Below, piece by piece: positions 3,980 to 19,540 of a stretch of 22,631 nucleotides of DNA. This DNA is from an uncultured Oscillospiraceae bacterium (GTDB lineage: Bacteria > Bacillota > Clostridia > Oscillospirales > Oscillospiraceae): positions 1-22,631 of the forward strand of contig CAKTPO010000029.1 of NCBI GenBank assembly GCA_934591845.1. The letters are read 5' to 3'. The position numbers were made by a program, and so were the translations under genes. Below the pieces are notes generated by a model. That model did no database searches, was not told where the DNA came from, and saw nothing but the letters and a program-made list of their open reading frames with translations. Position 1 is the first letter of the stretch; each line of letters starts with the position of its first letter.

Positions 3980-4768
3980 TCATTGACCTGCGCTGAACAG
4001 CATCCGGTCCGACTCCACCTGGAAGGCTTTCAGTAACTCTTCCGGGGTCATGGAGGAGCGTTTGGTGCCAGAGAGTTCCAGAAGGACGCTGCCGTCTTTC
4101 ATCATAATGGTCCGGTTACCGAGGCTTAAGGCAGAGGGAATGTTGTGGGTGATCATCAGGCAGGTGATGCGGTGGTCTGCCACGATTTTTTTGGTCAGTT
4201 CCAGCACCTTTTCCGCCGTGGCCGGGTCTAAGGCGGCGGTGTGTTCGTCCAAAAGCAGCAGCTTGGGGGTCACCAGGGTGGCCATGAGCAGGGTCAGGGC
4301 CTGACGTTGGCCCCCGGACAGGAGCCCTACAGGGTGGTTCATCCGGTCTTCCAGACCCAGGCCCAGCATGGAGAGCCGGTCCCGGAACTCTAATCGGTCT
4401 TTTTTGGTAATGGTGGAAAAGGGGGAACGGCTGTGGCTGGCCCGCAAGTAAGCCAGGGCCAGATTTTCCTCAATGGTCATATTGGGGGCGGTACCCCGCA
4501 GGGGGTCCTGAAAAAGTCTGCCGATGAATTTGCCCCGCCTGTAGTCCGGCATCTGGGTGATGTCCTGGCCGTCTAAGACCACGCTGCCCCGGTCTAGGGG
4601 GAAGGAACCGGCAATGGCACCAAAGAGGGTGGATTTGCCCGCACCGTTGGAGCCCAGCACCGTGACAAAATCCCCGGCATCCAGGTGAAGGTTCACCCCT
4701 TGCAGGGCCTTTTTTTCATTGACGGTGCCTTTTCCAAAGGTTTTTTCCAAATTGGTCAGGGTCAGCAT
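3980..4768 (-). CDS. trpZ: ABC transporter ATP-binding protein (tryptophan uptake type)
   Basis: Cytoplasmic ATPase (262 aa) powering the permease encoded just upstream. Walker A GSNGAGKST (39-47), Q-loop Q87, signature LSGGQ (150-154), Walker B LLLLDE (170-175) and H-loop H208 are all present, so it should be active. Start taken at ATG 4768: AAAGGAGGGG lies at the right distance, and only one base separates it from the permease stop, which implies translational coupling. The longer open frame to 4813 reads back into the permease gene and was rejected. The order lipoprotein-permease-ATPase under a Trp T-box matches the trpXYZ systems of Firmicutes; the symbol is by context, since related ATPases serve other ligands. 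Confidence 0.85.
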   Translation of the reverse strand: MLTLTNLEKTFGKGTVNEKKALQGVNLHLDAGDFVTVLGSNGAGKSTLFGAIAGSFPLDRGSVVLDGQDITQMPDYRRGKFIGRLFQDPLRGTAPNMTIEENLALAYLRASHSRSPFSTITKKDRLEFRDRLSMLGLGLEDRMNHPVGLLSGGQRQALTLLMATLVTPKLLLLDEHTAALDPATAEKVLELTKKIVADHRITCLMITHNIPSALSLGNRTIMMKDGSVLLELSGTKRSSMTPEELLKAFQVESDRMLFSAGQ

Positions 4769-4769
4769 G

Positions 4770-5642
4770 TTATACCCCTCCTTTCTTTTCCGCCCGCAGG
4801 GCCGGAATACCAATGGCCAGGGCCACGATCACGGCGGAAATCAGCTTCAGGCACTCACTGGGCAGATCCAGCCGCAGGGCAATGGCGATGATGAACCGGT
4901 AGAGAATGCTGCCAAGGACGGCGCCAAAGGCCTTTTTCCCGATGCTGCCCTTTCTGGTCAAGGTCTCCCCGATGATGAGGGAGGCAAGACCAATAATCAC
5001 CATGCCGGTGCCCAGATTGATGTCCGCGGTTTTCTGGTACTGGGCCAGCAGCCCGCCGGACAGGGCCGTCAGGGCGTTGGCCATGCACAGGCCCACGGTT
5101 ACGGTAAAGGCCGTGTTGATGGAGCTGGCCCGAACCATATCCGGGTTGTCTCCCGTGGCCCGGATGGAAAGCCCCAGCCGGGTCTTGAGAAACAGTACCA
5201 GAAGCCCTGCGGTAAGCACCGCCAGCACTGCCGCAGGCAATAGCCGGTAGTAGGCACCTAAAAAGGGTTTCAGCACCGTAAACACCGTGGGGGCTTTCAG
5301 CATGCTGACGTTGGAGGAAAAGCCCATAACCGCCAGATTCACGGTATACAGCCCCGTATTGGTGATGATGCCCGCCAAAATCGAGGGAATGCGCATTCTG
5401 GTCTGCAAAAAGGCGGTGATGAAGCCCGCGGCGGCTCCGGCCATCATGGCCAGGGGGATGGCCAGGAAGGGGTGGCCCGCCACGGCCACGGTGGCAGACA
5501 CGGCGCAGCCCAGGGTAAAGGCCCCGTCGGTGGTCATATCCGCAATGTTCAGGGTTTTGTAGCTCAAAAACAGGGCCAGGGCGACCAGGGCGTAAATGCA
5601 GCCCAGCTCCAAGGCGCTGCAAACAAGGGCAGTTGAAATCAT
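4770..5642 (-). CDS. trpY: ABC transporter permease (tryptophan uptake type)
   Basis: Integral membrane protein of 290 aa with about eight hydrophobic segments, resembling the BPD_transp_2 family (branched-chain-type permeases) found beside ABC_sub_bind lipoproteins. The loop ATGDNPDMVRASS around residue 160-175 resembles the conserved cytoplasmic contact loop for the ATPase. AAAGGAG precedes the ATG at 5642. It follows the lipoprotein gene after a 54-bp gap holding a stable hairpin, and is followed by the ATPase with a 1-bp gap. Substrate is inferred as tryptophan only from the T-box. Confidence 0.85.
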   Translation of the reverse strand: MISTALVCSALELGCIYALVALALFLSYKTLNIADMTTDGAFTLGCAVSATVAVAGHPFLAIPLAMMAGAAAGFITAFLQTRMRIPSILAGIITNTGLYTVNLAVMGFSSNVSMLKAPTVFTVLKPFLGAYYRLLPAAVLAVLTAGLLVLFLKTRLGLSIRATGDNPDMVRASSINTAFTVTVGLCMANALTALSGGLLAQYQKTADINLGTGMVIIGLASLIIGETLTRKGSIGKKAFGAVLGSILYRFIIAIALRLDLPSECLKLISAVIVALAIGIPALRAEKKGGV

Positions 5643-5666
5643 GGTGGACTCCTTTACATTCTCACA

Positions 5667-5688
5667 GGGGAGCCCCGAAAGGCTCCCC
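5667..5688 (-). promoter_or_regulatory. Intercistronic hairpin between lipoprotein and permease genes
   Basis: Perfect 8-bp stem GGGGAGCC/GGCTCCCC with a 6-nt loop. Read in the operon's direction it has no U-run after it, so it is not a convincing terminator of the operon. The run of T lies on the other strand side. Such a hairpin can protect the 3' end of the lipoprotein message and so raise binding-protein yield over permease, which is inferred here. Confidence 0.6.
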
Positions 5689-5696
5689 TTATTTTT

Positions 5697-6683
5697 TTAT
5701 TCCGTGGTGACTTCTTTCACGGTTCCGGCCATGGAGGAGAAGACACTGTAGTCTAGATTCAAAACCTTGGCGGTGTCGGTGTTCACGGTGATGATGCCGC
5801 CGTCCATCACGTGGTACTCGGGAACTTCCCCGCCCAGGAGGATGTCAACGGCCATATCGGCGGTGTAGGCCCCCAGCTCGCTGTAGTTCACGCCGCAGGT
5901 GGTAAAGGCACCGGCGGTGACGAAAGAATCGGCGCCAGTGTAGAACGGAATACCCGCCTCATTCAGGATTTCTGCCACGGCACCGGCGGCAGCCATGACC
6001 GTATTGTCCGTGGGGGTGAACACCGCCTGGACACGGCCTACCAGGGCACTGGCAGCGGTGAGAATTTCATCGGTGGAGTTTCCGGTCTTTTCAATGTAGG
6101 CAATGCCCTTGGCATCCAGGTATTCCTTTGCCTGGGCAATGGGGGTGGCGGAGTTGATCTCACTGTTGGAGTACAGCAGGCCCACGGTTTCCACTTCCGG
6201 CTGGACGGCAAAGAGCATATCCATGATCTGCTGGGTGTTCAGGGCATCGGAAGTGCCGGTGACGTTGGCAATGCCGGTGAGCTCCGAAGAAGCGGGGTCA
6301 GAGATGGCGGCGTAGATCACGGGAGTCTTGGTCTCCTCGGTGGCGGTGGCCATGGTGGTGGCGGCCAGGGTGGCAATGGGGAGGATGGCATCATAGCCGT
6401 CGGAGACCACCTGGGCCCCGATTTGATTCAGGACAGAGGCATCATTCTGGCCGTTGAATTCCTTGTAGGTGATGGTGATGTTTTTTTCCGCGGCCTTGGC
6501 ATCCAGCTCCTTTTCCATGGCCAGACGAATTTCATCCAAAGAGCTGTGATCCAGCTGCTGGACAATGGCCACTTTGAAACTGGTTTTTTCCGTATCGGCG
6601 CTGCCCTGGGGGGCAGAAGCGCAGCCGGTGAAAGACAGGGTGATAAGAGACAGGGCGCACAGCGCAGACAGAAGCTTTTTCAT
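5697..6683 (-). CDS. trpX: ABC transporter substrate-binding lipoprotein (tryptophan type)
   Basis: Extracytoplasmic ligand-binding lipoprotein of 328 aa. The N-terminus MKKLLSAL, a hydrophobic core and LSFTGC give a lipobox with the lipidated Cys at residue 21, then a short polar tether. The body resembles the ABC_sub_bind (PF04392) fold: KVAIVQQLDHSSLDEI at the start of the first lobe, a motif like TPVIYAAISDP, and a late GVNYSELG segment, all typical of this family. AAAGGAG lies 8 bases before the ATG at 6683. It is the first full-size gene of the operon and lies behind a T-box with a UGG specifier and a short leader ORF, which argue for tryptophan (or an indole relative) as ligand. Confidence 0.87.
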   Translation of the reverse strand: MKKLLSALCALSLITLSFTGCASAPQGSADTEKTSFKVAIVQQLDHSSLDEIRLAMEKELDAKAAEKNITITYKEFNGQNDASVLNQIGAQVVSDGYDAILPIATLAATTMATATEETKTPVIYAAISDPASSELTGIANVTGTSDALNTQQIMDMLFAVQPEVETVGLLYSNSEINSATPIAQAKEYLDAKGIAYIEKTGNSTDEILTAASALVGRVQAVFTPTDNTVMAAAGAVAEILNEAGIPFYTGADSFVTAGAFTTCGVNYSELGAYTADMAVDILLGGEVPEYHVMDGGIITVNTDTAKVLNLDYSVFSSMAGTVKEVTTE

Positions 6684-6741
6684 AATTAGAACTCCTTTTT
6701 GAATTGAAAAATTTTGAAATTTGATGGGTTTGTCCTTGATT

Positions 6742-6771
6742 TCACCATCGTCTCCCGGGATGATTTTTCAT
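6742..6771 (-). CDS. Candidate 9-residue Trp leader peptide MKNHPGRRW
   Basis: A short ORF in the leader RNA, between the T-box terminator and the lipoprotein gene. A perfect AGGAGG (6781-6786) stands 9 bases before its ATG, at least as strong as the ribosome sites of the main genes. The ninth codon, UGG, is the only Trp codon and directly precedes UGA. The bases CGAUGG at its end can pair weakly with CCCAUC about 20 nt downstream. This architecture fits a tryptophan-sensing or ribosome-stalling leader peptide, but no product or function is shown. It could also be a fortuitous ORF, although the strong ribosome site then has no purpose. Confidence 0.6.
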   Translation of the reverse strand: MKNHPGRRW

Positions 6772-6793
6772 AGCAATGTCCCTCCTGAAAATG

Positions 6794-6828
6794 AAAAAAG
6801 CCCCTGTTCCCCCTAGGGGGGAACAAGG
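6794..6828 (-). terminator. T-box intrinsic terminator
   Basis: A 12-bp stem including one G-U pair (6802-6813 with 6817-6828) and a CUA loop, followed in the operon direction by UUUUUU (6794-6799). It lies just after the T-box antiterminator sequence and would be replaced by the antiterminator when uncharged tRNA binds. Confidence 0.9.
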
Positions 6829-7080
6829 ACAGAAATGATCAATTCTGCGGTACCACCTTGTTTGCCGAAAAAATTCGACCGCTCAGCACGGTGCCAACAC
6901 ACCGTCTGCCCCATAACGCTGGCATTGCGTCAGAAGATACTTAGGATACTCTGTTCTCTCTGCCCTCGGCGGCCCATTTGCTGCTCCGCTTTTCGCCCCG
7001 CTCTCAGCCCCCGGGACTCTCTGTGGATGCGCTTACAGCTTTACTTCCGCTTCATAGGTTTGTCTTTTGAAGTTGGTTTG
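6794..7080 (-). promoter_or_regulatory. T-box riboswitch, tryptophan specifier (UGG)
   Basis: Minus-strand leader of the trpXYZ-type operon. The T-box sequence AAGGUGGUACCGCAG is at 6845-6859 and the terminator at 6794-6828. Stem I can be traced: GCGG (7047-7050) pairs with CCGC (6969-6972), and GCUG (7036-7039) with CAGC (6980-6983). These enclose an internal loop with AGUA on the 5' side and AAAUGGG on the 3' side. The only complete sense codon at the specifier position is UGG (6974-6976), Trp. The AGAGAG distal motif follows the 5' strand. Uncharged tRNA-Trp should favour read-through into the transporter genes. Confidence 0.92.
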
Positions 7081-7109
7081 GTTATACCACCAATTTGTGC
7101 GTTTGTCAA
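7081..7109 (-). promoter_or_regulatory. Sigma-A promoter of the T-box/transporter operon
   Basis: Perfect TTGACA (complement of 7104-7109), a 17-bp spacer, and TATAAC (complement of 7081-7086). Transcription would begin near 7074, just ahead of stem I of the T-box, so lexA read-through is not needed. Confidence 0.85.
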
Positions 7110-7149
7110 GAACTTTTTTCCGTGACGGGTGGATTTATTTGGAGTTTCC

Positions 7150-7725
7150 TTAATACTCCCGGACAACGCCTTTTACAAGGCCCAGAATCTGGGCATGAGT
7201 GCCGTCAATGGGGTCGTAGGCCTCATTTTCCGGCATGAGCCAGATTTTCCCGTTTCTCCGGCGCAGCCGCTTCACCGTGGCCTCGTCTTCGATCATGGCC
7301 ACCACAATCTGGCCGTCATCCGCCGTGGACTGGGGCCGGACAATGACCTTGTCGCCGCTGAGGATGCCGGCGTTGATCATGCTGTCTCCCCGGACCCGCA
7401 GGGCAAAGCAGCTGGGATCCTCCCAGGGAATGGTGCCCTCCTGATTTTCCATGGCCAGAATGGGCAGGCCTGCCGTGACCACCCCGATCACCGGGATCTG
7501 CCCCGGCCGGGCCCCGGTCATCAGTGCCCGCTTCCGGCCCTTTCCATCCGGGGCCTGAAACACGCCCTTTTCCTGCAGGGCCTGCAAATGATAGCTGACA
7601 GAGGCGGTAGAGCGCAGACCCACCGCTTCCCCAATCTCCCGGACAGAGGGGGAATACCCATTTTCCGCAATAAACGCATTGACAAACTCCACGATTTTCT
7701 CGGCTTTGTTGCTGGTTCTGGGCAT
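7150..7725 (-). CDS. lexA: LexA SOS repressor
   Basis: Transcriptional repressor of the DNA-damage response, 191 aa. The N-terminal winged helix-turn-helix covers about residues 1-65 (GYSPSVREIGEAVGLRSTASV). The C-terminal S24 self-cleavage domain carries the A85-G86 scissile bond in VVTAG, catalytic S115 in RGDSM and K152 in EATVKRL. All catalytic residues are present, so RecA-stimulated self-cleavage should work. GGAGG lies 7-8 bases before the ATG at 7725. No clear terminator is seen before the T-box promoter on the same strand. Confidence 0.95.
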   Translation of the reverse strand: MPRTSNKAEKIVEFVNAFIAENGYSPSVREIGEAVGLRSTASVSYHLQALQEKGVFQAPDGKGRKRALMTGARPGQIPVIGVVTAGLPILAMENQEGTIPWEDPSCFALRVRGDSMINAGILSGDKVIVRPQSTADDGQIVVAMIEDEATVKRLRRRNGKIWLMPENEAYDPIDGTHAQILGLVKGVVREY

Positions 7726-8299: not shown

Positions 8300-8480
8300 C
8301 GAAACATCCGGAAGCCCATCCGATTTCTCAAAAGCAGCACAATATACGCTTTCCCGGCAGGTGCCGGAGGTGCATTCGAAAATTTTCCTTTATCATTTTG
8401 ACCGTCCAGCCATCCAAATAGATGACTGGACGATTTTTCCCCGATTTTGCAAAAACCTCCTGCCACAGCTTGTACCTCAT
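8300..8480 (-). pseudogene. Frameshifted fragment of a PF01637-type ATPase gene
   Basis: Minus-strand remnant related to the intact ATPase gene at 16511-17833. In one frame RYKLWQEVFAKSGKNRPVIY matches its YKLWEDFFAEIGAIKNRPVIF. After a frameshift near 8400, NDKGKF and PAGKAYIVLLLRNR match NDKEDF and LAGTAYVVLIVRNQ. DNA identity is obvious over 8425-8475. The fragment covers roughly residues 70-125 only (Walker B region); the P-loop and C-terminal half are absent. Not functional. Confidence 0.8.
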
Positions 8481-8888: not shown

Positions 8889-8900
8889 GTAAGCGTCAAA
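8889..8900. repeat. IS66 left terminal inverted repeat
   Basis: GTAAGCGTCAAA, matching the complement of 12197-12208 over 12 bp. Confidence 0.88.
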
Positions 8901-8992
8901 ACTAATAACGTCGCATCCTATCAGTCGGAATCCCCAATGCCTAAGTCGAGGGGACTCGAACCCCACCAAAATACTCGTTTCGGTAAATGCTT

Positions 8993-9021
8993 ACGGCAGG
9001 CCCACCCAGTGAGCCTGCCGT
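8993..9021. other. Hairpin after the last IS66 passenger ORF
   Basis: Perfect 9-bp stem ACGGCAGGC/GCCTGCCGT with an 11-nt loop, five bases beyond the stop of the minus-strand passenger ORF. No U-run follows, so it may be a weak terminator or an mRNA end-stabiliser. Confidence 0.5.
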
Positions 9022-9025
9022 TCTG

Positions 9026-9400
9026 CTATTCTTTGTATTTACTGAAATCCATCCAATCTACGGCAGGGCGCTTACTCTCGCCATAGCACTTATCCAAGTA
9101 TAGATTGCAATACGGATTGTAGAGCTTGCGCATTTCTTGTTTCTGCTTATAAAGGTCAGCTTCAATTGCTCTGCGGACCCGTTCCAGGAAAGTTCCTCCG
9201 GTTGCAAGCTTTGCTTCTGCGCAATGGACGACAATCCCCATAAAGAAATCATCTTCCTCCATCAGGTATTTACCATTTTCGTACGGATACAGGGCGAAAA
9301 TGATATCACATTCTCTTGGAAGCGCATCTATTTCTTCCTTGTGCTTCGGATAGTTTGCGAGGGCTTGCCAGTAGGGTTTACCTGAAGTGCTCCTCTCCAT
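9026..9400 (-). CDS. IS66 passenger ORF 2, unknown protein
   Basis: 124 aa, starting at ATG 9400 (MERSTSGKPYW). The frame opens a little earlier with a TTG at 9418. Acidic and aromatic-rich, no signal or membrane segment, no motif I recognise; PRECDIIFALYPYENGKYLMEEDDFF is the most distinctive stretch. It lies within the IS66 boundaries and overlaps the 3' end of the preceding ORF by 73 bp in another frame, with no strong ribosome site. Translation may be coupled to ORF 1 or reached by frameshifting. Probably a non-transposase accessory of this IS66 type; function unknown. Confidence 0.6.
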   Translation of the reverse strand: MERSTSGKPYWQALANYPKHKEEIDALPRECDIIFALYPYENGKYLMEEDDFFMGIVVHCAEAKLATGGTFLERVRRAIEADLYKQKQEMRKLYNPYCNLYLDKCYGESKRPAVDWMDFSKYKE

Positions 9401-9732
9401 TTTACATTTTCGCCACAAATCTCGCCGTTAAAAATTGCTGGAAATTGAATTCTGTTCTCTCTGAGGATTTTTGCGGCATTGGGAACTGTTTTTCTGCCGC
9501 TCTTTGGAAATGTCACGCTGTCCCCACTTCCTGCTGCGCAAATCTGGATCGCGGTACAATCCTTGTTGAATCGAATCTGGACGGGCATCTTTGCCATTTT
9601 TTCTGCCACTTTACTGCTGAGCAGTACAATCCCTATTTCCTCTATTTTTACATACATGGCGGCCTGCGGAGCGGAGGGGGTGACTAGAATACTGAATTCT
9701 TCGTCTGTCATGTTTTTCAGATCCAACATCAT
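9328..9732 (-). CDS. IS66 passenger ORF 1, unknown protein
   Basis: 134 aa when started at ATG 9732, chosen because GAAAGGG lies 6 bases upstream; ATG 9729 is an alternative and ATG 9738 is too close to it. Begins MMLDLKNMTDEEFSILVTP and is soluble with a basic C-terminus (TRKK). I recognise no catalytic motif. It starts 14 bp after tnpC stops, so it is probably co-transcribed with the transposase. I recall similar small ORFs behind tnpC in clostridial IS66 copies, but cannot confirm it here. Confidence 0.65.
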   Translation of the reverse strand: MMLDLKNMTDEEFSILVTPSAPQAAMYVKIEEIGIVLLSSKVAEKMAKMPVQIRFNKDCTAIQICAAGSGDSVTFPKSGRKTVPNAAKILRENRIQFPAIFNGEICGENVKWRGALQVNPTGKPSQTIRSTRKK

Positions 9733-9746
9733 ATTCATCCCTTTCT

Positions 9747-11348
9747 TTATTTTGGAGCAGAAATTCTGCATTCCAACGGAGCGTTCTCTGGCAGCAATGC
9801 GGCAACATTTTCAGGTTTTGTCAAATCCATCCTAGCTGCCATGCGGAGGGTGTGAGAAAGATACTCGTAGGGATCCAATCCATATTCCATAGCGGTGCGT
9901 ATAAGGCTGAACATAACTGCGCTTCCGGCAGCACCTTTTGGGGTATTGGCAAACAGGAAATTTTTCAGGTCGATGACAAAGGGCTTGATACTCCGTTCCG
10001 CCCGGTTATTGGATATCTCCAGCCTGCCGTCTTTCAGATAATTCGTCAGGTAAGGCCATTGCTCTTTCAGATAAGTCAGTGCTTTGCCCAGCGCAGATTT
10101 CGGTGCGGCGTTCCGGATACTTGCCCACGACCACAAAGCGTCTAAAACAGGTTTTGCCTGCTTCAGCCGCTGCTTATAACGTTCTTCCGGTGCTGTCCCT
10201 TCCAGACTCTGCTCTATTTCAAACAGCACACTGCAGTACGCCAATCCTTGGGATGCGGAGCTTCCTTTGGCTTTTCCCTTTGGAAGAGATTTTACCGCCT
10301 CGTCAAATTTCCTACGGGCATGAGCCCAGCAGCCAACCACGGTTATCTCCTCCGGAAGATTATGATACCCGGCATAGCCGTCTGTATGGAGGTATCCATG
10401 GAAGCTATTCAGAAATTCCTTTGGATGTTTTCCACCCCGCCCCGGCTGGTATTCGTACAGCACAATGGGCTTTTGCGTATCCCCGCTGGTGCGGTAGAGC
10501 CACATATAGCTGTCGCTCTGAGGTGCTCTTCCAGGCTCGTGGAGGACTTGGAGCGTCGTTTCATCCGCATGGAGTACTTCTCGGACAAGCAGTTCCCGGT
10601 GCAGTCGGTCATATACCGGCTTTAAGTAGTCTTCTACCGCTTTTAGAATCCAGTTAGACATGGTCTGTCGGCTTAACTGAATACCACGGCGATCCAGCTC
10701 TTGTTCCTGACGGTAGATGGGTATACCCATGACAAATTTTTGTGTCATAATATGGGCAACGGCCTCTGGCGTAGCAAAACTGCCAGGCAGGAAACGATTC
10801 TCTCTGGGCGCACGTACCACAGGTGTTGTAATATTCTCCTTGTTACAGTGCTGGCAGGCATAGCTGTAGTAGATATGCTGTTCCACAACCACCCGTGCGG
10901 GAATGATTTTCATCTTGTTGATAACTTCTTTTCCAATCTCCGTCAGCTCTCCACCGCATTGGGGGCAGACCAGTTCTTGTCCTTCCAGCCGGTGCTCAAC
11001 TTGTTCTACCGGAACATCTTCTGGGATTTTGTCCAACGTGTATTCATGCTTTTTGTGACGCTTATGGGCAGCTACAACGGTCACATCTTCCTTGTTCCGC
11101 TGTTCTTCCGCAAACACTTCCGCTTCGTTAAACAGAAAGCTCAGCTGCTCGGAGAGTGTGTCCTCGCTCTTTTCAGAAGACGCACCGAAACGCTTGCGCT
11201 GCGCAAGGCGCAGTGCCTCCATGAGTACGTTCATACGCCCCTCAAGCTCAGAAACACGTCTGCTCTGAGCTTGAAGTTCCTCATATTCCGCCCGGGAAAT
11301 AGTAACGGTTTCCGGGGTGCTTGTCTGGAAAGAATCTGTCTTTTTCAT
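9747..11348 (-). CDS. tnpC: IS66 family transposase TnpC
   Basis: DDE transposase of 533 aa, normal full length. In order: an N-terminal coiled coil/leucine-zipper region (about 18-50), a zinc finger with C128, C131, C165 and C168 (CPQCGG and CQHC), and the catalytic core with D262 (HADETT), D323 (HTDGYAGY) and E451 (NNRAERSIKP). The usual C-terminal IS66 domain ends the protein. All catalytic residues are present, so it may be active. No ribosome site precedes the ATG, but TATGGTATAAT, an extended -10, lies about 10-20 bases before it, so a nearly leaderless transcript is possible besides read-through from tnpB. Confidence 0.94.
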   Translation of the reverse strand: MKKTDSFQTSTPETVTISRAEYEELQAQSRRVSELEGRMNVLMEALRLAQRKRFGASSEKSEDTLSEQLSFLFNEAEVFAEEQRNKEDVTVVAAHKRHKKHEYTLDKIPEDVPVEQVEHRLEGQELVCPQCGGELTEIGKEVINKMKIIPARVVVEQHIYYSYACQHCNKENITTPVVRAPRENRFLPGSFATPEAVAHIMTQKFVMGIPIYRQEQELDRRGIQLSRQTMSNWILKAVEDYLKPVYDRLHRELLVREVLHADETTLQVLHEPGRAPQSDSYMWLYRTSGDTQKPIVLYEYQPGRGGKHPKEFLNSFHGYLHTDGYAGYHNLPEEITVVGCWAHARRKFDEAVKSLPKGKAKGSSASQGLAYCSVLFEIEQSLEGTAPEERYKQRLKQAKPVLDALWSWASIRNAAPKSALGKALTYLKEQWPYLTNYLKDGRLEISNNRAERSIKPFVIDLKNFLFANTPKGAAGSAVMFSLIRTAMEYGLDPYEYLSHTLRMAARMDLTKPENVAALLPENAPLECRISAPK

Positions 11349-11398
11349 GGAATGATTATACCATATAAATGTAGAAAAGTACAGAAAAATGATCCGTT

Positions 11399-11755
11399 TT
11401 ATACAATTTCCAATCCACTTATCTGCCTATGCGCTTTTGGCTGGTCAATGCTGAGCCCCTCCATGAGCCAGCGGTATTGCTGCTTGATGAGGGCTTTGGC
11501 TTCGCTTTCTTTCCGCGGCCACTGGAAGATGCCCGATTCCAAACGCTTGTAGAGGAGAAGAAAGCCGTTTCCCTCCCAATATAGGGCCTTGATCCGATCC
11601 CGCCTTCTTCCGCAGAAAAGAAACAGACAGTTCTCCAAAGGATCCAATGAAAATTGCTGCTTGACCAGTGCAGCCAGTCCGTCGATCCCAAGCCGAAGAT
11701 CTGTATAGCCGCAGGCGAGGTAGACCTTGTCAGCTCCTGTAAAATCACTCAGCAT
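11399..11755 (-). CDS. tnpB: IS66 accessory protein TnpB
   Basis: 118 aa, the IS66 'Orf2' family. Diagnostic motifs: YLACGYTDLRLGIDGLAALV, LFLFCGRRRDRIKALYWEGNGF and the later WLMEGLSI. Required with TnpA and TnpC for IS66 transposition; its biochemical role is unresolved. The ATG overlaps the end of tnpA by 7 bp (ATGCTGAGTGA), implying coupled translation. Complete. Confidence 0.94.
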   Translation of the reverse strand: MLSDFTGADKVYLACGYTDLRLGIDGLAALVKQQFSLDPLENCLFLFCGRRRDRIKALYWEGNGFLLLYKRLESGIFQWPRKESEAKALIKQQYRWLMEGLSIDQPKAHRQISGLEIV

Positions 11756-12087
11756 GACCGCAGTCCCCGGAACACCGCTTCCAATGTCGCTGCGTCCGCT
11801 CCGTTGTATATTTCAATCTCCGAACCTAAGATATGGACCTTTGCGGCGATTTGGCCAGAGCCTCCTACGTTGGCTGGCGTTATATCCACAAACCCGCTGC
11901 CCTGCGCCTGTGTGCGTATTAATTCCTGAAACAGCCGCCGCTGCCAGTAGTAATACGTTTTTTCCGAAATGCCACGTTCCTGACACCACGCCCGAACCGT
12001 TATCCCACTGCCACGGCAGGCCGCAATTTTTCCACTCCACTGCTCCAGCCGTTCCTGCTTGGACAGTGCTTGTAGACTTTGTTCCAT
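11749..12087 (-). CDS. tnpA: IS66 accessory protein TnpA (helix-turn-helix)
   Basis: 112 aa from ATG 12087, preceded by AGGGAG about 9 bases away; the frame is open to a TTG at 12111. The N-terminal half is the IS66 Orf1 helix-turn-helix (GSGITVRAWCQERGISEKTYYYWQRRL), expected to bind the element's ends. The C-terminal half ends in the typical IEIYNGADAATLEAVFRGLR segment. First gene of the element's operon. Confidence 0.92.
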   Translation of the reverse strand: MEQSLQALSKQERLEQWSGKIAACRGSGITVRAWCQERGISEKTYYYWQRRLFQELIRTQAQGSGFVDITPANVGGSGQIAAKVHILGSEIEIYNGADAATLEAVFRGLRSC

Positions 12088-12196
12088 TTTGACCATCTCC
12101 CTATATGCCAAATGTATCCCATGCAGATTGAGGGAGACATTTGGAGTTTGAAGTATTATCTCACGGAGATGGTATGGTAGGCAAGATGTAGGGAGG

Positions 12197-12208
12197 TTTG
12201 ACGCTTAC
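12197..12208. repeat. IS66 right terminal inverted repeat
   Basis: TTTGACGCTTAC, complement of the left end at 8889-8900. The next base begins the IS1182 remnant. Confidence 0.88.
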
Positions 12209-12345
12209 GAATTTTCTCCGGTTGTGGTTGGTGTGCGCATTTTTTGCCAAAAAGTTATCCACAGCCTTGATGGGTAAGAAAAAGCAGACCCTTTCCATTT
12301 TGGAAAAGAGTCTGCGATTTGCTTTTGGGGTTATTTAACAGCCCC
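12209..12345 (+). mobile_element. IS1182-family right-end remnant (137 bp)
   Basis: Matches 16374-16510, the right end of the IS1182 element further right, with a single difference that I can see (12329 g, a in the other copy). It ends in the same terminal AACAGCCCC. The rest of this copy is gone; the cut coincides with the IS66 right end. It retains a hairpin that can terminate leftward transcription. Confidence 0.9.
12279..12315 (-). terminator. Terminator for the three-gene operon, supplied by the IS1182 remnant
   Basis: GCAGAC (12284-12289) pairs with GTCTGC (12310-12315) and the inner CTTTCC with GGAAAAG, one bulge apart. In the leftward direction the hairpin is followed by UUUUU (12279-12283). 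Confidence 0.65.
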
Positions 12346-12378
12346 TTTCGCACTCATTACTAAGAATGTTAGTCGAGT

Positions 12379-12429
12379 ACGCTCCCGGTTAGAGAGGTTA
12401 CGCACCTCTCCAACCGGGCAAAGGAGCGT
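12379..12429. other. Long imperfect hairpin downstream of the three-gene operon
   Basis: GAGAGGT/ACCTCTC (12392-12398, 12404-12410) closes a 5-nt loop TACGC. CCCGGTT/AACCGGG (12384-12390, 12412-12418) and ACGCT/AGCGT (12379-12383, 12425-12429) continue the stem with a one-sided bulge. That makes 19 base pairs in about 51 nt, with no T-run on either side. It lies 63 bp past the operon's last stop. It may be a structured RNA end or an old terminator; nothing coding is seen in 12346-12491. Confidence 0.6.
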
Positions 12430-12491
12430 TTCAATATGCGGGATGTTTACTTTACTGGGATACCAAAAGCAACTTGAAATTGAGAATGTAC

Positions 12492-13220
12492 TTAGCATTG
12501 ACCACGAAATTGCAAGCCATATTCCGAATTGAATATCTCGAGCTGCACTTTTCGCTTAATGATCTGTCCATGGATATTTGTAAATTGCTCAGAAAACTTA
12601 ATGCACAATACTTTATTCCTTATAGCGTTGTTTCGCTTCTCATTAAGTAATAAGGAAAAACAAATGAATATTTTAGACCCAGATTGGTACAGTTTGTCAA
12701 CCCTTAAAAAGTCGTTAGGAAATGATTCTGGCAATTGCAATATTTCGATATTGTCTGCGCTACTCGTATATCCAATTTCGAGATCTGATAGAACTACACT
12801 TTTTCCATCTGTCTTGGTTGTTATAGTAGCTTCGATTGGTATATGCAATGCGCATTTTGCACAGGGCTCTTGGTAAGCTTGGATAAAATAATATGGCTCT
12901 AACGACGCAAGCTCACCAGGTCGTAATAATTGATATACCCATGGTGAGATACTAACACAACTGTCTACGCCAGGCTCCATCTTTGGTGTTGAGGGTTGGA
13001 ATGACATAACTGTACTTTTCTTTTCTTCACTATCTTGAATAAAGAATAAAGAAATTGTAATCGCAATGTCAATCAAGAGTAATAGACTATTTAAGTTTTC
13101 GTTTTCAAGGATTAGAGCAAACTTTGTATCTGACAAAAACGTTGGCTTAAAGATTGATGCAATTGTGATTAAGCATATTACTATCAATACACACAGAAGA
13201 ATTTTTCGGTAATTTTTCAT
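12492..13220 (-). CDS. Two-transmembrane protein with beta-rich C-terminal domain, unknown
   Basis: 242 aa from ATG 13220; a TTG 18 bases earlier lies inside the upstream gene and was rejected. Two hydrophobic helices (about 7-24 and 44-62) are separated by a short loop. An acidic/lysine stretch (QDSEEKKST) and a ~175-residue soluble domain rich in alternating hydrophobic residues follow. A CAKC pair lies near residue 122-130. No signal-peptide cleavage site or catalytic motif is recognised. The start is 1 bp after the stop of the XRE gene, with GGAAAAGAG as ribosome site, so translation is coupled. The layout recalls '2TM, beta-rich' effector domains of bacterial defence systems in shape only. 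Strikingly AT-rich compared with the chromosome part. Confidence 0.75.
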   Translation of the reverse strand: MKNYRKILLCVLIVICLITIASIFKPTFLSDTKFALILENENLNSLLLLIDIAITISLFFIQDSEEKKSTVMSFQPSTPKMEPGVDSCVSISPWVYQLLRPGELASLEPYYFIQAYQEPCAKCALHIPIEATITTKTDGKSVVLSDLEIGYTSSADNIEILQLPESFPNDFLRVDKLYQSGSKIFICFSLLLNEKRNNAIRNKVLCIKFSEQFTNIHGQIIKRKVQLEIFNSEYGLQFRGQC

Positions 13221-13221
13221 A

Positions 13222-14103
13222 TTACTCTTTTCCAACAATCATTAACTGAGCATCCATTGTACTTAATAGTTTCGCTGTAGTTTCAATACTTGCGTTTTGT
13301 TGTAGCTTTTCAATTTTTGCTATCATTGTGCGATCAACTCCACTTTTTTGAGCCAATTCGTTTTGTGTCATATTGTTTTTAGTGCGCCATGTAAAAACAT
13401 ATTTTGATAACTGAGAACGAAATAGTTCACTTGTTATATCAGCTGGATTGGATTCTGAATTCTCTTTGTGATCTGTTGCATTACTGTCAAGTAGCAACGC
13501 AAGATTAGTTTTCCTCTTATCTAATGCTATGCGGTACAATTTATTATATCTTTCGCAAAGCGCATTTACATATATTCTATAGCTGAATCTTTTGCTGTCA
13601 GTAAAGTAAGAAAGTGCATTACTATCTATCTGATATTTAGCACATTTTTGCTGATGTTGAGAAGTTAAAAAGTTCTTTATTCCAGTCGAAATGTTATAGT
13701 TAATAAGTATATAGACATCCTCTGGGGGGATTTTTACGTTGGCCTCTTGAGAAGTCTGCGCCAAATCAATAATAAAGAAGGAAATATCCCGACTGGTACA
13801 TTCAAACATCTTATCTACAATATTTATATACAGTTTTTCGCTCTTGTTATAGTGTTCGTGGCTTTCTGGAGCATCGTCGTCAAATAATGCTTCGAGATAT
13901 TCGAGATACTGGACTGTGCTAATAAGCTCATCAAGTTTCTTCCGTCGCTCAGTCAACTCGGAAAGCAACGACCGTATCTTTTGCTTTCTCTTGTGTTGGC
14001 TGATTGCTTTGTATAGCTTTGCAAACATTCCATCAATGCGCTCACTTTTTTCATTAAAGAAAGTCGCACTATCAAGATACATATAAAAATCACTATGTTT
14101 CAT
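13222..14103 (-). CDS. XRE-family protein with large novel N-terminal region
   Basis: 293 aa from ATG 14103 with GGAGAGG at good spacing. The C-terminal 66 residues (about 228-293) are a helix-turn-helix of the XRE/HipB type: WRTKNNMTQNELAQKSGVDR, then TMIAKIEK as recognition helix. Residues 30-75 are highly charged and probably coiled-coil (KRKQKIRSLLSELTERRKKLDELI). The middle region (80-220) matches nothing I know. A C-terminal DNA-binding domain on a long unknown body is unusual for a plain repressor and suggests a combined sensor or antitoxin and regulator. It could autoregulate the operon through the TGTGA-N7-TCACA site at its promoter. Confidence 0.8.
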   Translation of the reverse strand: MKHSDFYMYLDSATFFNEKSERIDGMFAKLYKAISQHKRKQKIRSLLSELTERRKKLDELISTVQYLEYLEALFDDDAPESHEHYNKSEKLYINIVDKMFECTSRDISFFIIDLAQTSQEANVKIPPEDVYILINYNISTGIKNFLTSQHQQKCAKYQIDSNALSYFTDSKRFSYRIYVNALCERYNKLYRIALDKRKTNLALLLDSNATDHKENSESNPADITSELFRSQLSKYVFTWRTKNNMTQNELAQKSGVDRTMIAKIEKLQQNASIETTAKLLSTMDAQLMIVGKE

Positions 14104-14118
14104 AAAATTACCTCTCCT

Positions 14119-14457
14119 TCAGTTGGAAGACCGATATGTAACATCGTAGATACACATCATCCGCAGCCCATGAAAAAACATTTTCATGCCTCTCAGAGGG
14201 GTGACATACCATTGACCTTTTTCGTTTATCTCTACCAGCGATTGGAGGTAAAATGTTAAATGAATATCTTTCTCTCCAATGTCGTCTGAGACCTCCTGTA
14301 GAATAATGAAGCAAAACGCTGTCAAATACTTCCGGATTTTTTCCACTTGACCTTCCGTCAATTGAATCTCCGGATGGCAGGCTAAAAACTCCTGGAGGCT
14401 CAATCCATCTTTCCCGTTAGCCCTAAAACTTATCTTGAAAACACCTTCGTCGTACAT
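14119..14457 (-). CDS. 112-aa protein of unknown function, first gene of the AT-rich operon
   Basis: Starts at ATG 14457 with AAGGGGG 6-8 bases upstream. Ends 15 bp before the XRE gene. A soluble, mixed alpha/beta protein (KISFRANGKDGLSLQEFLACHPEI near the N-terminus, YVTPLRGMKMFFHG near the C-terminus). I recognise no family. Its place directly after a near-consensus promoter shows that it leads a three-gene operon. Confidence 0.72.
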   Translation of the reverse strand: MYDEGVFKISFRANGKDGLSLQEFLACHPEIQLTEGQVEKIRKYLTAFCFIILQEVSDDIGEKDIHLTFYLQSLVEINEKGQWYVTPLRGMKMFFHGLRMMCIYDVTYRSSN

Positions 14458-14476
14458 ATCGCTGCCCCCTTGCGTT

Positions 14477-14493
14477 TGTGAATATTTATCACA
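14477..14493 (-). promoter_or_regulatory. Candidate operator at the operon's transcription start
   Basis: TGTGA and TCACA are 5-bp inverted half-sites separated by 7 bp of pure A/T, lying over the expected transcription start (just past the -10 at 14497). XRE repressors often bind such short dyads. No second copy is seen nearby. Confidence 0.4.
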
Positions 14494-14496
14494 TTC

Positions 14497-14525
14497 ATAT
14501 TATCCCGCTCCGGCAGTTTTGTCAA
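14497..14525 (-). promoter_or_regulatory. Sigma-A promoter of the three-gene operon
   Basis: Perfect TTGACA (complement of 14520-14525), 17-bp spacer, TAATAT (complement of 14497-14502). Predicted leader about 30 nt. The stretch 14526-14622 up to the IS1182 holds no gene; it has an isolated AAAGGAG (14613-14619) just before the IS end. Confidence 0.82.
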
Positions 14526-14653
14526 GTAGTATCTACGGAAAAGAATTAGTTTTAATATATACGCCATCCCCAATGAGACTATAGGTGGCGACAATATAAA
14601 AAGGAAAGGAGTAATCCGCATTGGGGCTGTTAGAGAAGTCCCCATCTAACGCA

Positions 14654-14680
14654 GTGGCCAGTGATTCCAGCACTGGCCAC
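14654..14680. other. IS1182 subterminal hairpin
   Basis: Perfect 10-bp stem GTGGCCAGTG/CACTGGCCAC with a 7-nt loop, followed by AAAAAA. Lies 31 bp inside the left end; perhaps part of the transposase binding region. Confidence 0.6.
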
Positions 14681-14694
14681 AAAAAATATTAAGA

Positions 14695-14729
14695 AACGGC
14701 TGCAGCCAGTTGAGGTTGCAGCCGTTTTG
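14695..14729 (+). terminator. Hairpin insulating the IS1182 transposase
   Basis: Perfect 10-bp stem AACGGCTGCA/TGCAGCCGTT (14695-14704, 14717-14726) whose 3' arm runs into TTTTGT. Placed 26 bp before the transposase ATG, where it would stop transcripts entering from outside. Confidence 0.6.
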
Positions 14730-14754
14730 TAGTATCATTAAAGTCCCACCAAAA

Positions 14755-16344
14755 ATGAAAACTACAAAAATGAATTATACACCAATCCAGCTGAAATTAC
14801 CAGTGGATATGGAAAGAATTATTGAAATAAATGATTCGGTATATACTTTCAATGAAGTGGTGTCCCATATTGATCTGAAAAAATACTTTGTAGAGAAGGA
14901 CTACAAGGCCACGGGTCGTCCAAGATATGAACGCGAAAAACCTTTGAAAGTGTTGCTGTTTGCATTTATGGAGCACGGTTATCCGTCTTTACGAGAGACT
15001 GAGAAGCTGTGCAAAGTGGATATTCGGTTTATCTGGCTGCTGGATGAGATGAAAGCTCCCAGTTATGCCACGCTGTGTGACTTCATAAACCAGGAGCTAA
15101 GCTGCTCTCTGGAAGAAATTGTTCAGGAGATCAATAACTACATTTTTGCCCAAGAACATGTGGATCTCGACCATGTTTATATTGACGGGACCAAGATAAA
15201 GGCAAGCGCCAACAAATACAGTTGGGTGTGGAAAAAGAACTGCTTAACAAGTATTTCCAGGGAATTTGAGAAGATTACGAAAACATTCCAGGACGCAAAC
15301 GAAACGGTTCTGCAATATCTGGGATTGAAGCTGGGTGTTCGGGAGGAATACACTGCGGAATATTTATCTGAGATTCTGGAAGAATTTCTAAAGGTCACAG
15401 GCATGAACCAGGAAGAGTTTGTCCATGGGTCTGGTCGGCGGAAAACAGCAGGCCAGAGGCTGTATGAGCGGATAGATGACAGTCGAAAAAAGCTGAAGGG
15501 TTACAGGGAAAAGGTGGATATCTGCGGGGACAAACGCAATAGCTTCTCCAAAACCGACCACGACGCTACCTTTATGCGGGTAAAAAAGGATTATATGGGC
15601 AATGACCAGCTTCTCCCGGCCTATAATGTGCAAATGGGTGTCTGTGATGGATATATCGCGGTTTATGGGGTTTACCAATATGCCTCAGATTCCGACTGTT
15701 TTCAACCGTTAATAGAAGAATTTAAGAGAAGATACCACAAATATCCAAAGTATCCTGTGGCAGACGCTGGTTATGGCAATCTGAATAATTATCTGTACTA
15801 CCAAGAGCATGGAATGGAAAAATACATGAAGTTCCCCATGTACGAAAAGGAAACCAAGGACAAGAAGTACCGTGACGACCCGTATCGTGCCGTGAATTTC
15901 CGAGTAAATGAAGCGGGACGGCTGGTTTGTCCAAACAACAAGGAATTTCTTTTCCTACGGACAGAACCGGTAAAGGGCAACCAATATGGGAGGACCGTAG
16001 AACTTCACCAGTGCGAGGATTGTAGCGGCTGTCCGCACCGAGCCAAATGTCACAAAAGCGGATCTGACCGAATCATCCGGCTGAACTATGAACTGACATC
16101 CATACACAAGGAGGTTCTCGACAACCTGAACAGCATTCATGGCGCGTTGCTCCGTATGAACCGTTCCATACAATCCGAAGGGACTTATGGCGAAATAAAG
16201 GCAAACTGAGGATACGAGCGGTTCCGAAGAAGGGGCATAAACAAGGCAATTTTGGAGATTGCCCTGATAAGCTGCGGTTTTAATCTGCACAAGTACCATT
16301 TGAGCAAATTAGCAAAGGCCAATCCGGCCAAGGCTGCTGGATGA
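14755..16344 (+). pseudogene. IS1182 family transposase with internal TGA
   Basis: ATG 14755 starts MKTTKMNYTPIQLKLPVDME. The N-terminal DUF772-like region (GRPRYEREKPLKVLLFAFMEHG), the first catalytic aspartate block VYIDGTKIKA, a Cys-rich segment (CEDCSGCPHRAKC) and SEGTYGEIK are all in place. Codon 485 is TGA (16207-16209), probably from CGA, since the family reads G-N-R-x-Y-E there. Beyond it 44 codons continue the family ending in the same frame (GINKAILEIALISCGFNLHKYH) to TGA 16342. A 484-aa product would lack this tail, so activity is doubtful unless the TGA is read through. Confidence 0.87.
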
Positions 16345-16443
16345 ATAGTCCCCAAAAACTGCCGAAGAAAGACGAATTTTCTCCGGTTGTGGTTGGTGTG
16401 CGCATTTTTTGCCAAAAAGTTATCCACAGCCTTGATGGGTAAG

Positions 16444-16480
16444 AAAAAGCAGACCCTTTCCATTTTGGAAAAGAGTCTGC
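16444..16480 (-). terminator. Terminator for the ATPase gene inside the IS1182 right end
   Basis: GCAGAC (16449-16454) pairs with GTCTGC (16475-16480) and the inner CTTTCC with GGAAAAG. Leftward it is followed by UUUUU (16444-16448). It is 30 bp past the ATPase stop codon. Confidence 0.65.
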
Positions 16481-16510
16481 GATTTGCTTTTGGAGTTATT
16501 TAACAGCCCC

Positions 16511-17833
16511 CTAAACACGCTCAAATAGCTTCTTGTTCTTCTGCCCCAGCATAGACTTCAAATCCACCACCGAAACCGTTTCTAGATTCCGAAGCTGCTC
16601 CACATAGTTGCAAGCTCTGCCGACTGAAAACAGGAAGTAGATGTTCTCATAAAATGGACGGTTTTTTGTCGTTACTGTCTCAATCTTTTTAAATTCTGCT
16701 TTGGGAAAGCCCTCTCCAATATCATCCCAGATTTTTACATAGATCGTGTGATCCTTTGTTTCCTGCACATAATCAAAGTGAATGCCGTTGACTGTTACAT
16801 CCTGCTGCTTTGGATCTTCAAAACGTAGAATTTCATCCCAGTAATACTCACCGTAGTTTTTCTTCATCCACTTCCAGCATACCTTTTTGAAATATTCCGC
16901 AACAATTGAGTGGTCGATATCATTTGTCAGCAGCTGCAAACTGTCCCCCTCAAGTGGTTTCAGGCAGCGTCCCTGAAACGGAAACACATAGCGAAACCAC
17001 GTTTTCCAATAGCCGCCTTTGGGATAGTAGTGCGTGCGAACGTGGCCAGCGGTATCTTTCCTTTGCACTGTTTCCAAAAGCTCGACTTTATCCAAGGCTT
17101 TCAAATACTTATCGCACTTGTTCTGCGGAAAGCCGGAAAACTCCGCAAGCTGGCTGATACGGTTATGCCCGGTTGCCATGCCGTAAAGCAGGATATTGTA
17201 TGTCTCTGGTGTTCGGAAGTGCCGCCGCAGTTCTGATTCAGCATAGCGGAAATAGGTGGAATTCTGAGTAAAAAGCAATCCCAGATTCTCAGCAAAGGTC
17301 CTTTGAAAATCGAATAGCTGCACCAGCTCTGGAATACCGTCGGTAATCGCAATTGTCCGAAGCGCATCCAGCGGGTCAAGTGCCTTGTTTTCAGTCAAAA
17401 GCATAGGCACCGTGACTGTCGTCATTTGGAGAATATCAGACGGGAACGGCATTTCTATCTGATTCCGAACAATTAACACAACATAAGCTGTCCCGGCGAG
17501 TTCCGGAAGCGCATTCAAAAAATCTTCCTTATCATTTCTATCGTCCACATCATCGAAAAAGATGACTGGGCGATTTTTTATTGCGCCGATTTCCGCAAAG
17601 AAATCCTCCCACAGCTTGTACCCGGGCCGGAATATCTGCGGGGCAAATGCCGCATCCAGATTTCGGAAAGAAAAGTATTGCCCGCCGTATGCTTCCAGGT
17701 AGCTTTGCGCCAAGGAGGTCTTTCCCATTCCGCTTTTGCCGCAGAGCTGCGTAATCCACAGAGATGATTTCTGCATCCAATAATTGCTGACGCTGGTGTG
17801 GAGCTGTTTCGTATATTCTTCAATTCGTTTCAT
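16511..17833 (-). CDS. PF01637-type (archaeal ATPase family) ATP-binding protein
   Basis: 440 aa from ATG 17833; a GTG 9 bases earlier is an alternative, and the ribosome site is weak (GAG). P-loop GKSGMGKTS (32-40), Walker B RPVIFFDDVDD (88-98) and a sensor-like VLIVRNQ (119-125). A winged-helix part follows (around HNRISQLAEFSGFPQNKCDKYLKALDKVELL). The C-terminal domain, with FDYVQETKDHTIYVKIWDD and later YFLFSVG, resembles DUF234/PD-(D/E)xK-like tails of this family. Such ATPases are often solitary accessory genes of unknown task; mobile-element or defence links are inferred. The TAG stop is the first codon outside the IS1182 end. A decayed relative lies at 8300-8480. Confidence 0.82.
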   Translation of the reverse strand: MKRIEEYTKQLHTSVSNYWMQKSSLWITQLCGKSGMGKTSLAQSYLEAYGGQYFSFRNLDAAFAPQIFRPGYKLWEDFFAEIGAIKNRPVIFFDDVDDRNDKEDFLNALPELAGTAYVVLIVRNQIEMPFPSDILQMTTVTVPMLLTENKALDPLDALRTIAITDGIPELVQLFDFQRTFAENLGLLFTQNSTYFRYAESELRRHFRTPETYNILLYGMATGHNRISQLAEFSGFPQNKCDKYLKALDKVELLETVQRKDTAGHVRTHYYPKGGYWKTWFRYVFPFQGRCLKPLEGDSLQLLTNDIDHSIVAEYFKKVCWKWMKKNYGEYYWDEILRFEDPKQQDVTVNGIHFDYVQETKDHTIYVKIWDDIGEGFPKAEFKKIETVTTKNRPFYENIYFLFSVGRACNYVEQLRNLETVSVVDLKSMLGQKNKKLFERV

Positions 17834-17871
17834 TTTTATCACTCATATCATAAGTTGATTGAATATCGCTC

Positions 17872-18349: not shown

Positions 18350-18597
18350 ATTCATCTGATACATTCTCCCCCATCCGAGCCGGGAGGCCGTGCGCCATGA
18401 CCATCTTATGCGAGCGACAAACACGAGCCTCCACTGCCGGATAGCAACCGGCAAGGCGATGACGGTGGGGGCAGGACAATGATACTTCTCGAAAGAGCTG
18501 GGCGGAAGCGCAGGGGTGAAACTCCCATGGACCCGATTTGCTATCGGGCGTCAGATGAATCCAGTGCGCACGGGGGGCGAGGTCAAATAGGTGCGCA
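18350..18597 (+). ncRNA. Candidate structured RNA (or DNA site) upstream of parM
   Basis: A perfect 10-bp long-range helix pairs ATTCATCTGA (18350-18359) with TCAGATGAAT (18551-18560). It encloses further stems: CCTCCAC/GGTGGGG (18429-18435 with 18464-18470), TGCCGG/CCGGCA near 18436-18453, CTC-GAAA-GAG near 18488-18497, GGGGT/ACTCC near 18513-18525 and CCCGAT/ATCGGG (18532-18537, 18543-18548). Outside it, TGCGCAC (18565-18571) pairs with GTGCGCA (18591-18597). No ORF explains it. It ends about 30 bp before the parM start. It matches no riboswitch I know. If TTGACA at 18333 is the real -35, the first helix arm would not be transcribed, which would favour a DNA role such as a centromere. Confidence 0.5.
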
Positions 18598-18625: not shown

Positions 18626-19540
18626 ATGAAAACAATCAACAACATTAAAATCATCGGCGTGGATGCCGGGTACGGAAACATGAAAACAGCAAATTTCTGC
18701 TTCCACACCGGCCTGACCGCCTACGACACGGAGCCTTTGTTCACCAAGAATATGCTGGCCTACGAGGGCCGCTACTACCTGATTGGTGAGGGTCACAAAA
18801 CCTACACCGCCGAGAAAACTTTGGACGAGGACTACTACGTTCTCACTTTGGCGGCTATTGCCATGGAGCTGAGCCGGGAACACCTGACGGAAGCGGACGT
18901 TTACCTCTCCGCCGGACTGCCCCTTAGCTGGGTGCTGGAGCAGAAGGACGATTATCTTGCCTACTTGCTGAAGAATCAGGAAGTGGAATTTTCGTTTAAG
19001 GGGGTACGGTACAAAATTTGCATAGTCGGTGCGGACATTCTCCCCCAAGGGTACGCCGCCATTGCGGACAAGCTGGATGACCTGAAAGGGATGACATTGC
19101 TCTGCGATATTGGCAATGGGACCATGAATCTCATGTATCTTCGGGATGGGGATGCCATTCCTGATAAAATGTACACAGAGAAATTCGGGACTCAGCTGTG
19201 TGTGAACGCCGTCCTGGAAGCAGTTATGAACAAGTACCAGGTGGTCATGGACGAGGGAATCGTGGAGTCGTACCTGCGAACCGGCGAGGCGGATGTCGCC
19301 AAGGAATATCTCAAGATCATGAAAACAGCGGCCAGTCGGTATGCCCAGGAAATTCTCCGTCGGCTCCAGGTGCATGATTATACGCCGTCCCTCATGCGGC
19401 TGTATGTGGTAGGCGGCGGGGGCTGCCTGCTGCGGAATTTCGCCAAGCTGGACAGCAGCCGTGTCACATTCGATGATGACATCTGTGCCACTGCCAAGGG
19501 CTACGAGTTCCTGACGGAATATCATCTGCGCAATGGCTGA
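18626..19540 (+). CDS. parM: ParM/StbA-like actin-family segregation ATPase
   Basis: 304 aa, GAAAGGAAAACC before the ATG. The actin-fold nucleotide motifs are in place: phosphate-1 GVDAGYGNMK (11-20), the ParM-typical SAGLPLSW (95-102), phosphate-2 CDIGNGTMNL (160-169) and the adenosine loop VVGGGG (261-266). It should polymerise with ATP and push or pair element copies at division, using the RHH protein encoded downstream as adaptor. Overlaps that gene by 8 bp. The symbol follows the family; sequences in clostridial mobile elements are distant from plasmid R1 ParM. Confidence 0.86.
   Translation: MKTINNIKIIGVDAGYGNMKTANFCFHTGLTAYDTEPLFTKNMLAYEGRYYLIGEGHKTYTAEKTLDEDYYVLTLAAIAMELSREHLTEADVYLSAGLPLSWVLEQKDDYLAYLLKNQEVEFSFKGVRYKICIVGADILPQGYAAIADKLDDLKGMTLLCDIGNGTMNLMYLRDGDAIPDKMYTEKFGTQLCVNAVLEAVMNKYQVVMDEGIVESYLRTGEADVAKEYLKIMKTAASRYAQEILRRLQVHDYTPSLMRLYVVGGGGCLLRNFAKLDSSRVTFDDDICATAKGYEFLTEYHLRNG

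Follow-up and report, generated by a model that had tools for sequence, protein, structure and literature searches.

OptE (Panoptes) and Cap15 (CBASS) are described in PMC12657218 as effectors with two transmembrane (TM) segments, or 2TM effectors, and a cytoplasmic sensor domain; the soluble beta-barrel construct of OptE begins at residue 73. PMC11014256 describes the type III CRISPR protein Csx23 as having a cytoplasmic domain at its C-terminus, behind two TM helices predicted at the N-terminus. Among DNA-binding proteins, the HipB and Y4mF antitoxins and the restriction C-proteins carry an XRE helix-turn-helix (HTH) of the HTH_3 type. In a 22,631-nucleotide stretch of DNA (the window, by which we mean the whole stretch analysed), we characterized a gene trio whose second protein, P2, aligns with these DNA-binding proteins over residues ~229-287, where its model also superposes, but differs from them by a helical body of ~220 residues in front. 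The three genes are as follows.

14119 to 14457, minus strand: P1, an acidic protein of no family (open frame with 8 relatives)
13222 to 14103, minus strand: P2, mostly helical, with a C-terminal HipB-like XRE HTH at about residues 229-287 (HTH_3, E 9e-9)
12492 to 13220, minus strand: P3, two N-terminal TM segments and a C-terminal part predicted to be beta-rich (hydropathy, charges and a low-confidence model)

The minus strand holds three open frames, encoding proteins of 112 (P1), 293 (P2) and 242 (P3) aa. The spacing is 15 nt between P1 and P2 and 1 nt between P2 and P3 (stop TAA, T, then ATG), and a purine-rich tract lies ahead of each start codon. A longer, 248-aa form of P3, from a TTG within P2, was given by the frame lister. 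Since all six P3 relatives begin at the later Met, alignment indicates that P3 is most likely 242 aa, with its ATG at 13220 (13220-12492). Relatives exist for P1 (8), P2 (9) and P3 (6), and thus the three are not chance frames. These results bear out the original prediction of an unrecognised three-gene set at this place with tight coupling of genes two and three, as well as its claims, detailed below, that only the C-terminal HTH of P2 belongs to a recognised family and that the third protein has two TM segments.

The HTH_3 match covers P2 residues 239-283, scores 35.7 bits against a 23-bit cut-off, and was found in 10 of 10 rows of the P2 alignment at E up to 1. By profile, the PDB chain nearest to P2 was one of HipB (E 3.9e-6), and HipB was nearest by fold as well (Foldseek, best E 1.8e-3, with no match at E 0.001 or better). 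In the structure searches that the original prediction had called for, the P2 model, with a pLDDT of 48 and confident in the HTH alone, returned HTH proteins only, and the P3 model (mean pLDDT 46) returned no family. The nine P2 relatives are 35-99% identical to it. Comparison of the six distant rows revealed 59-69% identity in the HTH versus 20-39% in the body; on this alignment, the HTH is conserved and the body fast-changing. The first 32 residues weakly match DUF7002 (PF22531), covering 33 of 195 profile positions with 17.4 bits against a cut-off of 27; with E limited to 1, four of the 10 rows match this family, the best of them at E 1.6e-4. All 10 PADLOC matches of P2 fall within residues 222-287, giving no match to a PADLOC system beyond the HTH. 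Across nine window frames, PADLOC matched only two: P2, solely in its HTH, and a truncated RhuM frame at a distance of 7.7 kb.

The trio could be a toxin-antitoxin-like maintenance module of a mobile island, with P3 as membrane toxin and P2, with or without P1, as antitoxin and autorepressor. The P2 HTH is closest to the HipB and Y4mF antitoxins, a putative repressor gene lies next to the gene of a small membrane protein, and the trio is cargo adjoining mobilization genes. However, P3, at 242 aa and with a large non-membrane part, exceeds the usual membrane toxins in length, and P2, with 293 residues, would make a large antitoxin. P2 also scored below the cut-offs of two HipB-type families (27.8 of 79 bits for NF007271 and 33 of 71.65 bits for TIGR03070) and was not assigned to either, and no HipA, the partner expected in HipBA, was matched in 20 window frames including the trio (Pfam, E up to 1 or up to 0.01). 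We regard this explanation as possible, on the unlikely side.

Hydropathy analysis identified two membrane segments in P3 and its six relatives (62-98% identical), with overlapping extra windows in two of the six. Net charge is +2 to +3 at the N-terminus, -1 to -2 in the loop and -2 to +1 in the stretch behind the second segment. According to the positive-inside rule, the positive side of membrane segments is the cytoplasm. From the N-terminal charge and the even number of segments, the N-terminus and the C-terminal remainder are therefore probably both cytoplasmic. An aspartate in the second segment, Asp57 in the 248-aa numbering, is invariant in the seven rows. In the low-confidence model, the helices extend to about residue 70 and seven strands are predicted from residue 130 onwards; the remainder is probably beta-rich. 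The Foldseek/VIA matches listed for this model comprised beta proteins, Ig-like sandwiches among them. P3 had no match above curated cut-offs in Pfam or NCBIfam and none at all in PADLOC, and its best weak match was GNAT_C (E 0.072).

The smallest protein, P1, has eight relatives (50-98% identity), and the nine-row alignment contains 32 invariant columns. P1 is acidic in all nine rows (net charge -2 to -6), with no membrane segment by hydropathy. As with P3, Pfam and NCBIfam gave no match above curated cut-offs and PADLOC gave none at all; the best weak match was to phrog_35464 (24 residues, E 0.0029), and comparison with the PDB gave no convincing match. An invariant GGDD-like motif was absent from the nine rows.

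By hydropathy and charge, P3 shares with S-2TMbeta proteins, such as Cap15 and OptE, the trait of two N-terminal TM helices, followed by a soluble part that is predicted, at low confidence, to be beta-rich. We weighed a divergent CBASS- or Panoptes-type unit, in which P3 would be related to Cap15 and OptE and would respond to a cyclic nucleotide. The order of two TM segments and a soluble part, with modelled helices to about 70 and strands from 130, fits this idea. However, PF18153 was unmatched in 7 of 7 P3 rows at E up to 5, hhalign of P3 against six Cap15-type sequences gave a probability of 0.5% (the P3 alignment being shallow, Neff 1.6), and P3 was not assigned to the family. No adjoining cyclase or nucleotide synthase, such as the CD-NTase or mCpol gene expected of CBASS or Panoptes, was recognised: nucleotidyltransferase and polymerase profiles had no match in P1, P2 or the other window frames scanned, P1 lacks the GGDD-like motif, and the trio includes an XRE regulator and P1. 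Such a unit is highly improbable. P3 also resembles Csx23 in its two N-terminal TM segments and probably cytoplasmic remainder, and its likeness to Cap15, OptE and Csx23 is one of layout only. In a genome of the same class (locus L085), we observed a CBASS-like pair, in which a nucleotidyltransferase-like frame is followed by a protein above the PF18153 (Cap15) cut-off.

P3 is evenly conserved over its length (62-77% in the TM region, 57-75% in the linker and 62-73% in the rest; five rows, near-identical ones left out). This evenness is compatible with a mobile element's ordinary, non-toxic operon for membrane signalling, in which P3 would be an envelope sensor or a tether for P2 and P2 would regulate the operon or its neighbours. 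Pairing of a regulator with a membrane protein is common in signalling, which favours such an operon, while the IS-bounded position and the lack of a convincing relative in the genomes searched argue against a core regulator, not against a mobile-element regulator. We judge this explanation unlikely.

The trio lies between insertion sequences.

8889 to 12208, minus strand: IS66-type element with ends GTAAGCGTCAAA and TTTGACGCTTAC, abutting the IS1182-type remnant (match to an annotated TnpB)
12207 to 12345, plus strand: IS1182-type right-end remnant of 139 nt (1 of 139 bases differs from 16372-16510)
14623 to 16510, plus strand: IS1182-type element, complete-looking (transposase 14710-16209; DDE_Tnp_1_6, DUF772)

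The ends of the first element are presumably IS66-like, and an annotated IS66 TnpB matches 11433-11625. The IS1182-type element has end repeats at 14623-14641 and 16492-16510, and an annotated IS1182 transposase is 74% identical to it over 103 bases. The trio is thus flanked by the right end and the left end of one IS kind in direct order, a composite-transposon-like layout whose left IS1182-type copy would have been cut by the IS66-type element. Because no target-site duplication was seen by eye beside either element, later rearrangement is likely.

To the left is a chromosomal ABC-transporter/lexA block. Its LexA shares up to 86% identity with MAG loci titled Oscillospiraceae, Clostridia and similar. 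Of the ten best loci at the DNA level (L002-L011), seven match the ABC-transporter side too and three match lexA alone; similarity ends at or before ~7781 in all ten, some of which reach only ~1 kb beyond. Right of the block come the IS66-type element, the trio, the IS1182-type element, an AAA ATPase, an actin-like gene, a NikA-like gene, a relaxase and the cut-off RhuM frame, in agreement with the predicted location among IS elements, an ATPase and mob genes. GC content is 0.369 over 12346-14622 and 0.573 over the block (3980-7725). The claim of an AT-rich operon in a GC-rich setting is therefore right about the operon and, since the flanking IS elements and ATPase have values of 0.445-0.492, right about the setting on the chromosomal side only. 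On sequence grounds, the AT-rich trio segment is mobile cargo beside the chromosomal lexA.

Several other features were observed in these surroundings. The AAA ATPase gene (16511-17842, minus strand) has its stop codon immediately next to position 16510, where the IS1182-type element ends; as this gene also shares the trio's strand, the IS1182-type element may have split an older neighbourhood. A remnant resembling the ATPase gene lies at 8317-8474 (minus strand), as two pieces in different frames, one of 34 aa at 50% identity and one of 43 aa at 47%, and adjoins an AbrB/MazE-like frame (28 of 48 profile positions covered). The Rfam pemK RNA motif RF02913 occurs at 18476-18530 (plus strand, 52.1 bits), upstream of the actin-like (ALP_N) gene at 18626. 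The RhuM-family frame (PF13310; 22186-22629, plus strand) runs off the window and matches the PADLOC phage-defence candidate PDC-S05 (best E 4.8e-52).

We also examined the DNA flanking the three frames for regulatory signals.

14497 to 14525, minus strand: promoter-like TTGACA-17-TAATAT upstream of P1 (10/12 consensus match, well placed)
14477 to 14493, no strand assigned: inverted repeat TGTGA-N7-TCACA between the -10 and the P1 start, a candidate P2 operator
12384 to 12418, no strand assigned: strong hairpin downstream of P3 with 15-nt arms (93%) and no T-run (-34.5 kcal/mol)
12284 to 12315, minus strand: hairpin with T-run that resembles a terminator, downstream of the trio and within the IS1182-type remnant (from a scan)

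The near-consensus promoter of the original prediction holds as to match and placement; as a scan pattern it is not above chance, because six sites were found versus 8.2 (sd 2.9) in shuffles. The inverted repeat is the sole match in the window at one mismatch or fewer (it has none), and is within reach of chance, with at least one match in 44 of 100 shuffles. The region 12375-12440, which contains the strong hairpin, folds at -34.5 kcal/mol (z -6.6); 38 nt separate this hairpin from the IS1182-type remnant, and no copy was found in viral contigs or 90 loci. The terminator-like scan gave three sites versus 1.6 (sd 1.3) in shuffles.

Protein relatives were searched among 5.8 billion proteins; none of the 23 found (P1 8, P2 9, P3 6) was named by its source. 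Equal lengths of the longest contigs suggest, indirectly, that pairs of the genes co-occur, P2 with P3 once (P0007 and P0017, 2645 in both) and P1 with P3 twice (P0022 and P0015, 13741 in both; P0023 and P0018, 21890 in both). No longest-contig value was common to P1, P2 and P3, no P2 match had 13741 or 21890, and four P2 clusters, with longest contigs of 36128, 12232, 22933 and 27008, had no P1 or P3 match of equal size; P0005, among these four, is 99% identical to P2. Given these unshared values, the three genes may not always travel together. The original prediction's worry that the genes never co-occur is partly countered, for pairs, by the three shared contig values, and not for all three together.

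The trio looks rare. A scan with two short conserved patterns of P2 over one genome each of 84,980 species gave 43 stretches, none of them relatives. Among viral contigs, 1 of 35 stretches for P2 matched (HTH only, 28%), and none of 277 for P3 or 97 for P1. Plasmids held no P1, P2 or P3 relative, and phages no P2 or P3 relative. In whole genomes, P2 was matched in 1 of 12 (HTH only, E 2.9e-4), 0 of 394 at E 1e-9 and 0 of 391 at E 1e-8, the last two limits being set low to exclude bare HTH matches; P3 only partially, in 2 of 400 at E 0.001, and in 0 of 291; and P1 in 0 of 300. The two partial P3 matches, neither of them convincing, lie in a frame that we read as resembling a sugar ABC-transporter permease (L083) and in a 27-aa frame with a stop (L084). 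The genome sets overlap, and for want of a genome with a known match to serve as positive control, these searches show rarity only loosely. A word search of the literature found no description of the trio, and such searches cannot exclude one.

The reading we prefer, with a probability of roughly 38%, is an autoregulated cargo operon in which P2 is a repressor with a fast-changing input domain and P3 a membrane effector. The operon would be accessory and horizontally moved, with its three genes transcribed together. With its C-terminal HipB-like HTH, P2 would bind at the promoter region of the operon and hold expression down, and its helical body would take the input, which may be a partner protein, a phage or some other foreign trigger. 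P3 would be the effector, its two inner-membrane helices, with the invariant Asp, being gated by the cytoplasmic beta-rich domain; once released, it would harm or depolarise the membrane. P1, small and soluble, would be a partner that most likely regulates or chaperones P2 or P3.

In favour of this repressor and effector arrangement we count the 15- and 1-nt spacing, the HTH (E 9e-9) with HipB nearest by profile and fold, the TGTGA-N7-TCACA repeat (weak), the 2TM order in 7 of 7 rows, the P3 charges and Asp57, the differing rates of change in the P2 body and HTH, the contigs shared by pairs, the IS1182-type ends, the relaxase, the NikA-like gene and the RhuM frame rightward. Against it, no family or structure backs the effector action (models at pLDDT 46 for P3 and 48 for P2), and no known trigger gene, nucleotide cyclase included, was found. 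The charge behind the second P3 segment, the lack of a PADLOC match for P1 and P3, the possibly incomplete linkage of the trio and an operator repeat within reach of chance also count against it. An unrecognised operon of a regulator and a 2TM protein in mobile surroundings is supported as predicted, and any defence or toxin-antitoxin role is one that we infer.

A bolder form, which we consider quite unlikely, is an undescribed three-gene immune module in which P2, as one-component sensor-repressor, its sensor body diversifying and its HipB-like DNA-binding tail fixed, would together with P1 directly control a 2TM/beta membrane effector with no nucleotide messenger.

If the operon is only regulatory mobile cargo, the trio is a catalogue entry. 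If P3 is a regulated membrane effector, the locus would add a Cap15-like layout in which a sensor that binds DNA takes the controlling place of the cyclic nucleotide, and two new protein families, those of P1 and P3.
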